From Amycolatopsis acidiphila (GTDB taxonomy: Bacteria; Actinomycetota; Actinomycetes; Mycobacteriales; Pseudonocardiaceae), in NCBI RefSeq assembly GCF_021391495.1, contig NZ_CP090063.1, forward strand, positions 4,278,001 through 4,342,000: DNA of 64,000 nt, read 5' to 3'. The notes under the pieces were generated by a model. That model saw only the letters and a program-made list of their open reading frames with translations, was not told where the DNA came from and did no database searches. Below, in pieces: positions 2,385-8,898 of this stretch; the stretch's first letter is position 1; the number at the start of each line of letters is the position of its first letter. The position numbers and the translations under genes are program-made.

Positions 2385-5300
2385 ATGTCTGTGGAGACCA
2401 CCTCACGGCCGGTGCGCAGCGCCGTGCAGGTCATCCGGCGCGACGGCAGCGTGTCCCCGTTCGACGCGAACAAGATCTCGGTCGCCCTGACCAAGGCCTT
2501 CCTCGCCGTCGAAGGGGACGCCGCCGCCGCGTCCTCGCGCGTCCACCACGTCGTCGGCGAGCTGACCACGCAGGTCGAGACCTCCCTGCTGCGCCACGCG
2601 AACGCCGAGACGTCGCTTCACATCGAGCAGATCCAGGACCTCGTCGAACTCGCGCTCATGCGCGGCGGTCACCACAAGGTGGCCCGCGCGTACGTCCTCT
2701 ACCGCGAGGAGCACGCGAAGGCGCGCGAGAAGCCCGTCGAACCCGGCTCGCCCGCGCACGTCGACTGGGCGCGCGTCGAGCACGTCGTCGCGGAGGCCGT
2801 CGCCGGGCTCGACGACGTGTCGGCGGAGCCGGTGCTGGCCGAGACCAGGCGCAACCTCTACGAGGGCATCACGCCCGGTGAGCTGGGCACGGCGCTGATC
2901 ATGGCCGCCCGCACGCTCGTCGAGAAGGAGCCCGGCTACTCCTACGTCACCGCGCGCCTGCTGCTGGACAAGCTGCGCGGCGAGGCACTGACGTATCTCG
3001 CGGGGCAACCGCGCCAGGCCGGCCACGACGAGATGAACTACCCCGGCTACTTCCGCGACTACCTCGCACGTGCGATCGAGCTGGAGCTGGCCGACGAGGA
3101 GCTGGCCGCCTTCAACCTGAAGAAGATCACCGCGGCGATCCGCCCGGAGCGCGACCTCGACTTCGGCTTCCTCGGCCTGCAGACCCTCTACGACCGGTAC
3201 TTCCTGCACCACGACGGCACCCGGTTCGAGCTGCCGCAGGCGTTCTTCATGCGTGTCGCGATGGGCCTGGCGCTGCGGGAGGACGAAAGGGAATCTCGTG
3301 CAGTGGAGTTCTACGAGCTGCTCTCGACGTTCCGCTTCATGGCCTCGACGCCGACGCTGTTCAACTCCGGCACCACCCGGCCGCAGCTGTCCTCGTGCTT
3401 CCTGACCACTGTGGACGACGAGCTCGACTCGATCTTCCAGTCCTACAAGAACAACGCGCTGCTGGCCAAGTACTCCGGCGGCCTCGGCAACGACTGGACC
3501 CCCGTCCGCGGCCTCGGCGCGCACATCAAGGGCACCAACGGCGAGTCCCAGGGCGTGGTGCCGTTCCTCAAGATCGCCAACGACACCGCGGTCGCCGTGA
3601 ACCAGTGTTTCGCGCCCGAGACCGGCATCTACACCGCCGACGGCGTCAAGGAGATCCAGAACATCCACCAGGGAGATCTGGTCCTCGGTTCGAGCGGCAG
3701 CTACCGCGAGGTGACCGACGTCCTCGCCTATGACCAGAGCGACCCGATGGTCGAGGTGAACGTCAAACACTCGGTGGAGCCGCTCACCGTCACCGCGGGC
3801 CATCCCTTCTTCGCAATTCAGGGCGTACCGCTCGGGCAGGAGAACCGCCGCACGCTCCAGTGGCTCGCCGAGGGCAAAGTACGCCCGGAATGGGTTGAGG
3901 CAGGCACTCTCACCAAGGGCGACTACATTGCCCAGGTAGTACCCGGCGAGGTAGTGCCGCTTCCCGGGTTCACCGAAGACGACGCGCGCCTTTACGGCAT
4001 CCTGCTCGGCGACGGTCATCTGTCGAAGGCCGGGCAACAGTGGGGTGTATCCGGAAACCCAGAGCTGGACACGCATCTGGAGTTCGTTCGCAAGTACCTC
4101 AACGAACGCGGCATCCACTTCTGGGAAACCGGGCGCGGCGACAGCTACCTCCAGATCCACTGGGCTGCCGGCCGAGGCGTGCTGCCCGACGCCGCCACGG
4201 GCCGGATAACCGGTGCCGGTGTCCCTACCCTGCCCTTCACGGCTCCCGACATCTACGACGACGAGCACAACAAGCACATCGCTCGCAGGCTCTCGCATCT
4301 GCCCAAAGCGCAAACGCTCGCACTGTTGCAAGGTCTGCTGGAGACCGACGGCGGCGTGTCCCGCGGAGTGGAGGCCTATTTCACGACGACCTCCCGGCCA
4401 CTCGCGGCCGGCGTGCGCTATCAGCTACTTCGGTTGGGAGTTCCTTCGGCCGGAGAGTACCGGGAGCGCGAGCAAAGCCATTTCGGACGCCGCTCGGATG
4501 GCCCCAGCACCACCTTCTCCGGCACCCTGAAGGCGTTCGATATCCGGGTTCCCGCGGTACCGGAGATCGCGCAGCTGATCGGGTGCCGCCCCCTCGCGAA
4601 GCGAAACTGGATCGAGTACCAGGGAATGGTCTTCTCCCGGGTACTCGACGTGCGAAGCGTCGATGTCGTACCGACTGTGTTCGATCTCAAGGTCGACGTG
4701 GACGAGTCCTACATGACTGTCGCGGGCCTGGTGCACAACGGCGGCAAACGGAAGGGCGCCGCCTGCGCGTATCTGGAGACGTGGCACGTCGACGTCGAGG
4801 AGTTCCTCGACCTGCGCAAGAACACCGGCGACGACCGGCGCCGGACGCATGACATGAACACCGCGAACTGGGTGCCCGACGAGTTCCTGCGCCGCGTCGA
4901 GGCCGACGCCGGCTGGACACTCTTCTCCCCCGACGAGACCCCGGACCTGCACGACCTCTACGGAACGGCCTTCGCCACCCGGTACCGCGAGTACGAGGCC
5001 GCCGCGGAGCGCGGCGAGATCAAGGTGTTCCGCCGGGTCCGGGCCGTCGACCTGTGGCGGCGGACGCTCACCATGCTCTTCGAGACCGGCCACCCGTGGA
5101 TCACCTTCAAGGATCCGTGCAACCTGCGCTCGCCGCAGCAACACGCCGGCGTCGTGCACTCGTCGAACCTGTGCACCGAGATCATCCTGAACACCAGCGC
5201 CGACGAGGTCGCGGTGTGCAACCTCGGCTCGGTCAACCTGCTCGCGCACGTGAGCGCGGACGGGCTCGACACCGAACGGCTGGCGCGCACCGTCCGGACG

Positions 5301-6281
5301 GCCGTGCGGATGCTCGACAACGTGGTCGACATCAACTTCTACACGATCCCCGAGGCGCGCCGGTCCAACCTGCGCCACCGCCCGGTCGGGCTCGGCCTGA
5401 TGGGCTTCCAGGACGCGTTGTTCGAGCTGGGCCTGCCACTGGCCTCGGCCGAGGCCGTCGAGTTCGCCGACCGCAGCATGGAGCACCTCAGCTACCACGC
5501 GATCTCGGCGTCGGCGGAACTGGCCGCCGAGCGCGGCCGCTACGAGTCCTTCGACGGATCGCTGTGGAGCAAGGGGATCCTGCCGATCGACTCGCTCCGC
5601 CTGCTCGCCGAAGCCCGCGAGGGCGACGACCTGGACGTCGACTACTCGTCCACCTTGGACTGGGACGCCCTGCGCGAGCGGGTGCGCGACACCGGCATGC
5701 GCAACTCCAACGTGATGGCGATCGCGCCCACCGCGACGATCTCCAACATCTGCGGGGTCGGGCAGTCGATCGAGCCGCAGTTCCAGAACCTGTTCGTCAA
5801 GTCGAACATGTCCGGCGACTTCACCGTGGTCAACCCGCACCTGGTGCGCAGTCTCAAGGAACGCGGCCTGTGGGACGAGGTGATGGTCGCGGACCTGAAG
5901 TACTTCGACGGCAGCCTCGGCCGGATCGACCGGGTGCCCGAGGACCTCAAGCGGCTGTACGCGACGGCGTTCGAGATCTCCAGCCGCTGGCTGGTGGACG
6001 CGGCCTCGCGACGGCAGAAGTGGATCGACCAGGCCCAGTCGCTCAACCTCTACCTCGACGCGCCCAGCGGCCGCAAGCTCGACGAGCTCTACCGCTACGC
6101 CTGGCACAAGGGCCTCAAGACCACGTACTACCTGCGGACACGCTCGGCCACCAGCGTCGAGAAGAGCACGTTGCGCGGCACCGACGGCAAGCTCAACGCT
6201 GTCCCGGCCGCTGCCGTCCCAGCCGCGCCCGAACCCGCTGCCTGCCGGATCGACGACCCCGACTGCGAGGCCTGCCAGTGA
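2385..6281 (+). CDS. nrdA: Ribonucleoside-diphosphate reductase alpha subunit with intein
   Basis: Class I ribonucleotide reductase large subunit, reducing ribonucleotides to deoxyribonucleotides with the beta subunit encoded next. The precursor is 1298 residues; removing the intein (residues 408-785) leaves 920. An ATP-cone (about residues 12-100, [24 protein letters not shown]) gives allosteric control. Active-site cysteines are visible as QLSSCFLTT (Cys338), [10 protein letters not shown] (Cys930) and VCNLGSVNL (Cys945), and the tail DPDCEACQ supplies the shuttle cysteines. Exteins join as AVAVNQ-GGKRKGA, the normal family sequence. The ATG lies behind the NrdR boxes. The TGA overlaps the nrdB GTG. 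Activity depends on splicing, which is questionable here because the +1 residue is Gly. Confidence 0.95.
3606..4739 (+). mobile_element. Intein with LAGLIDADG homing endonuclease inside nrdA
   Basis: A 378-residue insertion interrupts the conserved alpha-subunit sequence AVNQ/GGKRKG. It starts with Cys ([10 protein letters not shown], block A). It has the block B TxxH motif in TVTAGHPFF. It carries both LAGLIDADG-type motifs with their acidic residues, [11 protein letters not shown] (about 536-546 of the precursor) and GLLETDGGV (about 650-658). It ends in [11 protein letters not shown] with the usual His-Asn. Valine GTA and other A/T-ending codons are more frequent than in the flanking nrdA, consistent with separate ancestry. 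The first C-extein residue is Gly, not Cys, Ser or Thr, so canonical branched-ester splicing is not possible as written. Confidence 0.92.
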
Positions 6282-7306
6282 CCACCCTGATCGACAGTGA
6301 CGCCGGCCGGGTCAGCGTCGAGGACAAGGCGATGCTCAACGCCCGCGCCGACGTCAACCAGCTCCTGCCGCTCAAGTACTCCTGGGCCTGGGAGAAGTAC
6401 CTCGCGGGGTGCAGCAACCACTGGATGCCGACCGAGGTCTCGATGCAGGCCGACATCGCGCTGTGGAAGTCGCGCGACGGCCTCACCGAGGACGAGCGCG
6501 TGCTGCTCAAGCGCAACCTCGGGTTCTTCGCGACCGCGGAGTCCCTGGTGGCCAACAACCTCGTGCTCGCGGTGTACCAGCGGATCACCAATCCCGAGTG
6601 CCGCCAGTACCTGCTGCGCCAGGCGTTCGAGGAGGCCGTGCACACCCACACCTTCCAGTACATCTGCGAAAGCCTCGGGCTCGCCGAGGGCGAGCTGTTC
6701 AACATGTACCGCGAGGTGCCCTCGATCACCGCGAAGGACGCGTGGGCACTGAAGTACACCCGCGGCCTGGAGGCCGGGGCGCCGCAGGACGACCAGGACT
6801 TCCTGCGTGACCTCGTCGCGTTCTACGTGGTCTTCGAGGGGATGTGGTTCTACACGGGGTTCGCGCAGATCCTCTCGCTCGGCAGGCGCAACAAGATGGT
6901 CGGCATCGCCGAGCAGTACCAGTACATCCTGCGCGACGAGTCGATCCACCTGAACTTCGGCATCGACTGCATCAACCAGATCAAGATCGAGAACCCGCAC
7001 CTGTGGACGCCGGGGTTCCAGGCGGAGGTGCGCGGGATGCTGGTCGAGGCGTGCGAGCTGGAGGTGGCCTACGCGCGCGACACCATGCCACGCGGGATGC
7101 TCGGGCTGTCGGCGCAGCTGTGCGAGCAGTACATGCACTTCATCACCGACCGGCGCGCCCGGCAGATCGGGCTGGCGCCGGTCTTCGGTGCGGACGAGAA
7201 CCCGTTCCCGTGGCTGTCGGAGGCCATGGACCTGAAGAAGGAGAAGAACTTCTTCGAGACCCGGGTGACCGAGTACCAGACGGGTGGTTCGCTCGACTGG
7301 GACTGA
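6278..7306 (+). CDS. nrdB: Ribonucleoside-diphosphate reductase beta subunit
   Basis: The 342-residue small subunit forms the di-metal and radical cofactor that starts catalysis in NrdA. Ferritin-like metal-ligand helices are visible: [33 protein letters not shown] (ExxH), [14 protein letters not shown] and [16 protein letters not shown] (ExxH). The C-terminus, [17 protein letters not shown], is the acidic tail that docks on the alpha subunit and contains a tyrosine of the radical-transfer type. The GTG start overlaps the nrdA TGA as GTGA, so the subunits are co-translated. It has no intein. Control is presumably through the upstream NrdR boxes. Confidence 0.95.
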
Positions 7307-7390
7307 CAACGGGGCTTGCCAGTTGAGGTGGGGGGCGGCAACCTGGGGTGAGTGCGGCACGGCAGGGAGGCGGGCCGGAACGGCGGGGCC

Positions 7391-7407
7391 GCTTGCGGTG
7401 GGCAAGC
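7391..7407. repeat. Inverted repeat upstream of the P450 gene
   Basis: GCTTGC and GCAAGC form a 6-base inverted repeat around GGTGG in the 161-base region between nrdB and the cytochrome P450 gene. It could be an operator or a weak hairpin. No regulator is adjacent, and no convincing -35/-10 pair was seen. Confidence 0.35.
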
Positions 7408-7467
7408 AACTTGCTCCGCCACACGCACCGCCACGCAAGCCACTCTCACCACTCTCGAGGAGGCACT

Positions 7468-8898
7468 GTGACGATCCGCGACCGGATTCCGCCCCTGACC
7501 TCGATCCCCTTGCCCAACGCCGTGGACCGGCGGCTGCTGACCCGGCGGCGGCCGGTCAGCGAGCTCGCCGCCCCGCCGCCGGGCAGCGGTCTCGCGCCGG
7601 TGCTCGGCGACGCGGGCGCGCCGGTGATCGGGCACGCCCTCGCGTCGATGCGGTTCGGCATCGACTTCGCCCTGCACCACTACGAGACCTACGGCCCGGT
7701 CTCGTGGATGGGCTCGTTCGGGCAGCGGTTCGTGGTGCTCGCCGGACCCGAGGCCACCCAGGTCGCGCTGGTGAACAAGGACAAGGCCTTCTCGCAGGAG
7801 GGCTGGAAGTTCTTCATCGAGCGCTTCTTCCACCGCGGGCTGATGCTGCTGGACTTCGAGGAGCACCACCTGCACCGGCGGATCATGCAGGAGGCGTTCA
7901 CCCGCGACCGCCTCACCGGCTACGCGCGCCAGTTCGGGCCGGTGCTGCGGGACGGCATCGCGAACTGGGGCGAGACGGGACGGCCGCGGCTGTACTGGGC
8001 GCTCAAGCGGCTCACCCTCGACGTGGCCACCCGGGTGTTCATGGGCATGCGCTCGGAGTCGGGGCACGCGGCGCGGATCAACCGGGCCTTCGTCGACTCC
8101 GTGCGCGCGGCGACGGCGCTGGTGCGGTTCCCGGTGCCGGGCGGGCGCTGGGCCGCGGGCCTGGCCGGGCGGCGGACGCTGGAGGCCTACTTCGCCGAGA
8201 ACCTGCCCGCGAAGCGGCGCGCCAACGGCGAGGACCTGTTCTCCGCGCTGTGCCACGCGACCGGCGAGGACGGCGAGCAGTTCAGCGACGACGACGTGAT
8301 CAACCACATGATCTTCCTGATGATGGCCGCGCACGACACGACGACGATCACCAGCACCGCGGCCGCCTACCACCTGGCCAAGCATCCGGAGTGGCAGGAA
8401 CGCGCCCGCGAGGAGTCCCTGGCGCTCGGCGACGAGCTGCCCGGCCTGGCCGCACTGGACGAGCTGACGACACTGGACCTGGTGATCAAGGAGTCGCTGC
8501 GGCTGACCGCGCCGGTGCCGTCGCTGCCCCGCAAGGCGGTCAGGGACGTCGACGTGCTGGGCCACTACGTCCCGGCCGGCTCGTTCGTGAACGTCTCGCC
8601 GAACACCAACCACTTCTCGCCCGGCCACTGGACGGACCCGCACGCGTTCGACCCGGAACGGTTCGCCGAGGGACGGCGCGAGGACAAGTCGCACCGCTAC
8701 GCGTGGATGCCGTTCGGCGGCGGGGCGCACAAGTGCATCGGGCTGCACTTCGGCACGTACGAGGTGAAGGCGGTGCTGCACGAGATGCTGCGCGCGTACC
8801 GGTGGTCGGTGCCCGAGGGCTACCGGATGCGCTGGGACTACGTCTCGCTCCCGGTCCCGGTGGACGGGCTCCCCGTTCGCCTGACCCGGGCCGTGTGA
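7468..8898 (+). CDS. Cytochrome P450
   Basis: A 476-residue haem-thiolate monooxygenase. The I-helix oxygen-activation motif is AHDTTT. The K-helix ExxR is ESLRL, and the haem-binding loop FGGGAHKCIG carries the proximal Cys at about residue 423. HLHRRIMQEAFTRDRLTGYA is a conserved C-helix block. The GTG was chosen because GAGGAGG sits 4 bases upstream; the spacing is short, but no better start fits. There is no ferredoxin or reductase partner next to it, so redox partners must come from elsewhere. The sequence resembles mycobacterial CYP136-type and eukaryotic CYP26-like proteins, but I would not assign a family or substrate. Confidence 0.9.
   Translation: MTIRDRIPPLTSIPLPNAVDRRLLTRRRPVSELAAPPPGSGLAPVLGDAGAPVIGHALASMRFGIDFALHHYETYGPVSWMGSFGQRFVVLAGPEATQVALVNKDKAFSQEGWKFFIERFFHRGLMLLDFEEHHLHRRIMQEAFTRDRLTGYARQFGPVLRDGIANWGETGRPRLYWALKRLTLDVATRVFMGMRSESGHAARINRAFVDSVRAATALVRFPVPGGRWAAGLAGRRTLEAYFAENLPAKRRANGEDLFSALCHATGEDGEQFSDDDVINHMIFLMMAAHDTTTITSTAAAYHLAKHPEWQERAREESLALGDELPGLAALDELTTLDLVIKESLRLTAPVPSLPRKAVRDVDVLGHYVPAGSFVNVSPNTNHFSPGHWTDPHAFDPERFAEGRREDKSHRYAWMPFGGGAHKCIGLHFGTYEVKAVLHEMLRAYRWSVPEGYRMRWDYVSLPVPVDGLPVRLTRAV

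Follow-up and report, generated by a model that had tools for sequence, protein, structure and literature searches.

The window analysed here is a 64,000-nucleotide stretch of the Amycolatopsis acidiphila genome (NCBI RefSeq assembly GCF_021391495.1, contig NZ_CP090063.1, positions 4,278,001 to 4,342,000 of the forward strand). It contains a complete nrdA gene, for the large subunit of a class Ia ribonucleotide reductase, that is interrupted in frame by an intein followed by glycine at the first position of the C-terminal extein (Gly+1). A sequence-only reading had described an insert that begins with Cys and ends with His-Asn, and exteins that rejoin exactly, with Gly encoded by GGC at 4740-4742. 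This anatomy was confirmed by reading the window together with intein-free alleles.

2385-6281, + strand: nrdA, complete, 1298 residues in an uninterrupted frame (open reading frame (ORF) list)
2385..3605, + strand: nrdA N-extein, 407 residues, with ATP cone and N-terminal domain, ending VAVNQ
3606..4739, + strand: intein, 378 residues, Cys1 to His377-Asn378
3606..3608, + strand: Cys1 codon TGT, NrdA residue 408
3792..3803, + strand: block B TAGH, with Thr63 and His66
3990..4022, + strand: endonuclease motif of 11 residues, read by eye, which we take to be block C-like
4323..4358, + strand: endonuclease motif of 12 residues, block E-like, read by eye
4683..4685, + strand: Asp360, block F:4, invariant (numbering after PMC4031507)
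4734..4739, + strand: His377-Asn378 (CAC AAC), NrdA residues 784-785, C-terminal end of the intein
4740..4742, + strand: +1 codon GGC, Gly
4740..6281, + strand: nrdA C-extein, 513 residues plus stop

The intein and its glycine junction

The host product scored above the cut-offs for PF03477, PF00317 and PF02867 and matched PRK07207 with 1577.7 bits (cut-off 965), as expected of a class Ia large subunit. The domain scan revealed that the barrel domain of NrdA is split by a LAGLIDADG segment, with the endonuclease family PF14528 matching residues 644-693 at 31.8 bits (cut-off 22.5), while the Hint_2 match of the window protein fell below the Pfam cut-off (22.9 vs 28.4). Host residues to which we ascribe catalytic roles are invariant across 61 aligned NrdA precursors. 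Removal of the intein joins the exteins as AVAVNQ-GGKRKGA, in agreement with intein-free relatives; in alignments, the counterparts of Gly+1 are E. coli NrdA residue 295 (2r1r) and 5im3 residue 443. The insertion point, between the equivalents of E. coli residues 294 and 295, presumably lies beside the substrate site, within loop 2, the substrate-specificity loop of class I reductases; a literature search on loop 2 at this insertion point found no paper.

A survey of the genus identified NrdA in 18 of 19 genomes, two of which carry the intein. The 16 empty alleles are all in register, 15 reading NQ^GGKRKG and one NQ^GGRRKG (the caret marks the insertion site), and the VNQ^GG junction is invariant in the 61 aligned precursors. 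Thus, these 16 empty sites display the exact insertion into an otherwise intact gene that is the general mark of an intein.

The family was examined through a protein search, which returned 1038 matches of which the best 120 were listed (the window's own included), and through a scan of one genome per species, in which the best 80 of 140 relatives were kept and to which a viral scan added two, giving 82 loci. A same-site intein with Cys1, His-Asn and Gly+1 was present in all 120 of the best protein matches, and Gln-1, Cys1, His-Asn and Gly+1 were found in all 82 loci, so that the alignment at this site, which the sequence-only reading had proposed as a check, gave glycine in every member examined. 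Canonical class 1 inteins have Cys or Ser at position 1, a block B Thr and His, and a terminal His-Asn, all of which occur in the 190 distinct inteins, and Cys, Ser or Thr at +1, in place of which Gly stands throughout the listed proteins and loci. Among the distinct inteins, C1, T63, H66, D360, H377 and N378 never vary, and the splicing domain has no conserved Cys other than Cys1. Thr B:7, His B:10 and Asp F:4 have been assigned to activation of the N-terminal splice site (PMC4031507, in part; sources so marked are cited from the portion available).

Two ways of explaining the glycine away had been raised with the original observation, an erroneous +1 codon and a different extein boundary, and neither was borne out. 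The +1 glycine is encoded by four codons across the 82 loci (GGC 52, GGT 14, GGA 9, GGG 7), which, together with the in-register empty alleles, rules out a sequencing error or frame slip. Had the boundary been placed wrongly, a Cys, Ser or Thr close by would have to serve as +1; the first such residue in the window is the Cys at +9, and this one varies within the family (P0044, L109, L110).

Among the inteins compared, Gly+1 is peculiar to the nrdA intein at the VNQ^GG site, because the same reading of junction sequences gives canonical +1 residues in control inteins. Other intein-like inserts of more than 100 residues in the 120 listed NrdA proteins have Cys at +1 at an SS^C site (one protein) or Thr at an NLC^T site (six proteins). 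These inteins, along with one ending HN^C in an nrdE-like gene, share the host enzyme family of the window intein but have a canonical +1 Cys or Thr instead of Gly. In the same genome, an intein in what we take to be a topoisomerase subunit B-like gene (G000:C1:1282193-1283488; L140, L142) ends in HN followed by Ser, and another in a presumably radical-SAM-like gene (G000:C1:4428499-4429197; L141) ends in HN followed by Cys. In a phylum sample of 396 genomes, with at most four candidates scored per genome, 16 genomes besides the window's own matched at E values of 9e-7 or worse, and six loci read from this sample were other, distant inteins with Thr, Ser or Cys at +1.

Distribution and mobility

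Phylogenetic analysis used the 74 of 83 rows that were long enough, many of them from metagenome-assembled genomes (MAGs): 12 from Actinomycetota (the window included), 48 from Pseudomonadota, seven from Chlamydiota, three from Verrucomicrobiota, one from Acidobacteriota and three unplaced. Thus, the Gly+1 intein spans five phyla. In these trees the inteins of Actinomycetota cluster together (local support 98), as do their exteins (99), so that Gly+1 is probably old within that phylum. Across 6328 pairs drawn from the 120 listed proteins, intein and extein identities were correlated (r 0.75). The most discordant pairs involved Fulvimonas soli, with 64-70% identity in the intein and 51-55% in the extein core, and cases such as this suggest that the intein moved between NrdA subtypes. 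The second intein-bearing member of the genus is 82-86% identical in the matched parts, and its intein is shorter, at 343 residues, lacking about 24 residues at 285-308 among others.

Among 33 pattern matches, two contigs from IMG/VR (L109 and L110; 159 and 102 kb) have an nrdA gene that includes the Gly+1 intein, the L110 gene having a second insert near the NLC site. Named phages and plasmids yielded no close relative, one search giving three weak matches below 30% identity and another none. A gammaproteobacterial MAG (G493, contigs C571 and C327; L108) has two nrdA genes, both with an interruption of about 1.1 kb separating the same two matched parts; one of these genes was read. The insert is best explained as a mobile intein with a predicted homing endonuclease, fixed at one class Ia NrdA site where the host supplies Gly+1.

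Possible dependence on NrdA and the proposed splicing route

Whether carriers possess another reductase bears on whether this intein must splice. The genome containing the window and 80 carrier genomes were searched with PF02867, which covers class I and class II large subunits, and the intein-bearing NrdA was the only PF02867 protein in 39 of the 81, including five with nrdA broken by contig ends or a frame change (G448, G463, G480, G481, G486). Class III NrdD was present in 10 of the 39 (one match being a fragment), one of which also has a monomeric class II enzyme; in 29 of the 81 no other class I, II or III reductase was detected. These 29 include five culture-collection strains (Thiofilum flexile DSM 14609, Thiolinea disciformis DSM 14473, Thiothrix lacustris DSM 21227, Thiothrix eikelboomii ATCC 49788 and Macromonas bipunctata DSM 12705), as well as two MAGs whose titles call them chromosomes; an NrdB match was present in every one of these seven genomes. 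The NrdA frame is longer in Thiofilum (1731 residues) and Macromonas (1747 residues), each having an additional insert. Provided that the searches missed nothing, sole-reductase carriers would depend on NrdA made from the Gly+1 precursor.

Several observations were made in passing on these genes. NrdB of Thiofilum flexile (G427:C1:31071-32831) is split in frame by about 930 bases within an open frame of 724 residues, perhaps by another intein. The class III NrdD of Candidatus Thiothrix singaporensis (G442:C1:2201790-2203586) contains one in-frame TGA, either selenocysteine or an error. In a verrucomicrobial MAG (G480:C9; L095), with no other reductase found, nrdA seems to shift frame after the intein, whether by assembly error or in reality. 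In the window, nrdA is followed by two frames:

6278..7306, + strand: frame with GTG start overlapping the nrdA stop, presumably nrdB (ORF list)
7348-8898: ORF downstream of nrdAB with an FGGGAHKCIG motif, which we take to be cytochrome P450-like

The situation in the window's own genus is different from that of sole-reductase carriers: the nrdJ gene that the sequence-only reading had proposed to look for was found in the genome itself, and all 19 genomes have an NrdJ-like second match while NrdA is missing from one, so that the intein may have cost little there. That reading had offered as one alternative that splicing is slow or conditional, making NrdAB a regulated enzyme, backed for example by a class II reductase. 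Such a switch is possible within the genus, but it cannot account for the family as a whole, given that no second class I or II large subunit was detected in 39 of the 81 carriers. Furthermore, 16 of the 18 NrdA-bearing genomes in the genus are intein-free, no stimulus sensor was found, and no Rfam family, riboswitch or other known RNA, reaches its gathering threshold in the window. A conditional switch is, therefore, considered improbable. The apparent dispensability of NrdA in the genus would also suit a degenerate, non-splicing parasite, but the residues needed for splicing do not vary across the five phyla, none of the 82 inteins read contains a stop, and in many carriers no other reductase was detected; this explanation is largely refuted and has very little left to recommend it.

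Because every member examined has Gly+1, the other catalytic residues are invariant, and many carriers lack another detected reductase, the intein very probably splices, and the same evidence lends good support to the other alternative of the earlier reading, noncanonical splicing in an enzyme of DNA synthesis. The element is likely an intein that is class 1 in all residues checked except +1, and it would splice without a branched intermediate, the Gly amine, once freed, attacking the thioester directly. In the proposed route, Cys1 would form the N-terminal thioester by an N-to-S shift aided by Thr63, His66 and Asp360. Asn378 would then cyclise with the help of His377, releasing the alpha-amine of Gly+1, and this unhindered amine would attack the Gln-1 thioester directly to create the native Gln-Gly bond. 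Side-chain transesterification and the branched intermediate would be bypassed, as has been proposed for bacterial intein-like domains (BILs) of type A (PMC4031507, in part). We infer both the occurrence of splicing, from the sole-reductase carriers, and the order of its steps.

A number of points weigh against this route. BILs that lack a +1 nucleophile yield mostly cleavage products (PMC7664689; PMC4031507, in part), and, therefore, an essential NrdA would need a far more efficient version of the reaction. One review denies A-type BILs any ability to ligate (PMC7765530), another credits them with the capacity for complete splicing (PMC5874633), and a Magnetospirillum BIL spliced only after its +1 residue was changed to Cys (PMC4031507, in part). 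No feature that would make Gly+1 splicing efficient was found. Where block F usually has His, most sequences have Glu (72 of 83), a residue that also aligns there in the ordinary archaeal intein 2cw7. When a whole precursor (P0011) was modelled with AlphaFold2, the model had predicted local distance difference test (pLDDT) values below 50 at residues 200-271 and 653-693, flanking the insert, and, thus, gave no support to the host fold holding the ends together. Finally, most of the 29 sole-reductase genomes are MAGs, and any of the 29 may be incomplete.

The serious rival is cleavage without ligation, in which both ends of the intein are cut and the halves of NrdA work as a non-covalent complex, akin to genes in pieces. 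Friedrich, in 2007, reportedly described a reductase that kept its function although the insertion of a homing endonuclease had left it in pieces. In such a case a phage nrdA gene has been called "still functional" (PMC3653736, in part), and type A BILs reportedly favour cleavage over splicing (PMC4031507, in part). Conservation of C1 and HN is equally compatible with cleavage and with splicing. However, both reactive ends are retained in all 202 sequences read (120 proteins and 82 loci), and the break would fall between the equivalents of E. coli residues 294 and 295, presumably in substrate-specificity loop 2; cleavage alone is accordingly judged unlikely.

A branched intermediate might instead be formed on a substitute nucleophile within the intein, in the fashion of class 3 inteins, the candidates being positions 344 and 368, where each of the 190 distinct inteins has Ser or Thr. 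Position 368 is likewise Ser or Thr in some ordinary inteins whose +1 residue is Ser, Thr or Cys (L010 and L025, by eye), which makes this residue an unlikely substitute. A hydroxyl would, moreover, have to stand in for Cys, and none of the 190 departs from Asp at block F:4, the site of the class 3 nucleophile, ruling out a class 3-like Cys in block F. A substitute nucleophile of this kind is regarded as quite improbable.

Relation to known inteins and intein-like domains

The Gly+1 intein is present in Azotobacter vinelandii CA (L044), and InBase reportedly listed the Azotobacter vinelandii RIR1 entry as a BIL, in which case the absence of the nucleophile had already been noted for a single species. 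A search of open-access papers found no account of Gly+1 in nrdA inteins, and the available portion of a report of an nrdA intein in Thiomargarita does not comment on the +1 residue (PMC4853749). Reviews hold that +1 Cys, Ser or Thr is needed for splicing and that domains without it are poor splicers outside conserved genes (PMC7664689; PMC2814812 and PMC4031507, in part). A widespread, mobile Gly+1 intein in an enzyme that seems irreplaceable in many carriers would provide a testable case of efficient splicing without a side chain from the C-extein. Such elements are also a possible source of inteins that leave a Gly-Gly junction and no Cys or Ser scar.

With class 1 LAGLIDADG inteins such as TliVMA (7qsu) and PI-SceI, the nrdA intein shares Cys1, the block B TxxH, Asp F:4, His-Asn, a HINT fold with inserted endonuclease, and insertion at a conserved site of an enzyme that makes DNA precursors. 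It differs in its Gly+1, as inteins are stated to be inserted before Cys, Ser or Thr (PMC2814812, in part). Class 2 inteins have Ala1 and Cys+1, in contrast to Cys1 and Gly+1 here. Class 3 inteins resemble the proposed mechanism in departing from the class 1 order of steps, but they lack Cys1 and have Cys at F:4, in the WCT motif (PMC4031507, in part), while Cys1 and Asp360 are invariant in the nrdA intein. Outside the inteins, the proposed attack of the Gly amine on the Cys1 thioester is comparable to transpeptidation by sortase.

Type A BILs, such as that of C. thermocellum (2lwy), likewise end in His-Asn without a +1 nucleophile, and ligation by a free amine has been proposed for them. The nrdA intein matches the 2lwy fold at 1.6 A over 129 residues, although Foldseek/VIA searches gave no unique nearest splicing domain, many inteins being tied. 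However, BILs occur in non-conserved regions of variable proteins (PMC7765530; PMC5874633; PMC2814812, in part), whereas the nrdA intein interrupts an essential enzyme in a conserved region, and has a LAGLIDADG domain, an exact empty allele and the same +1 residue in all members examined. The nrdA insert would be a true homing intein whose C-terminal junction is of the BIL type, and the chances seem about even that it represents a further mechanistic class of homing inteins, marked by obligate Gly+1 and direct aminolysis with no branched intermediate, and efficient enough to serve the sole reductase of some free-living bacteria.
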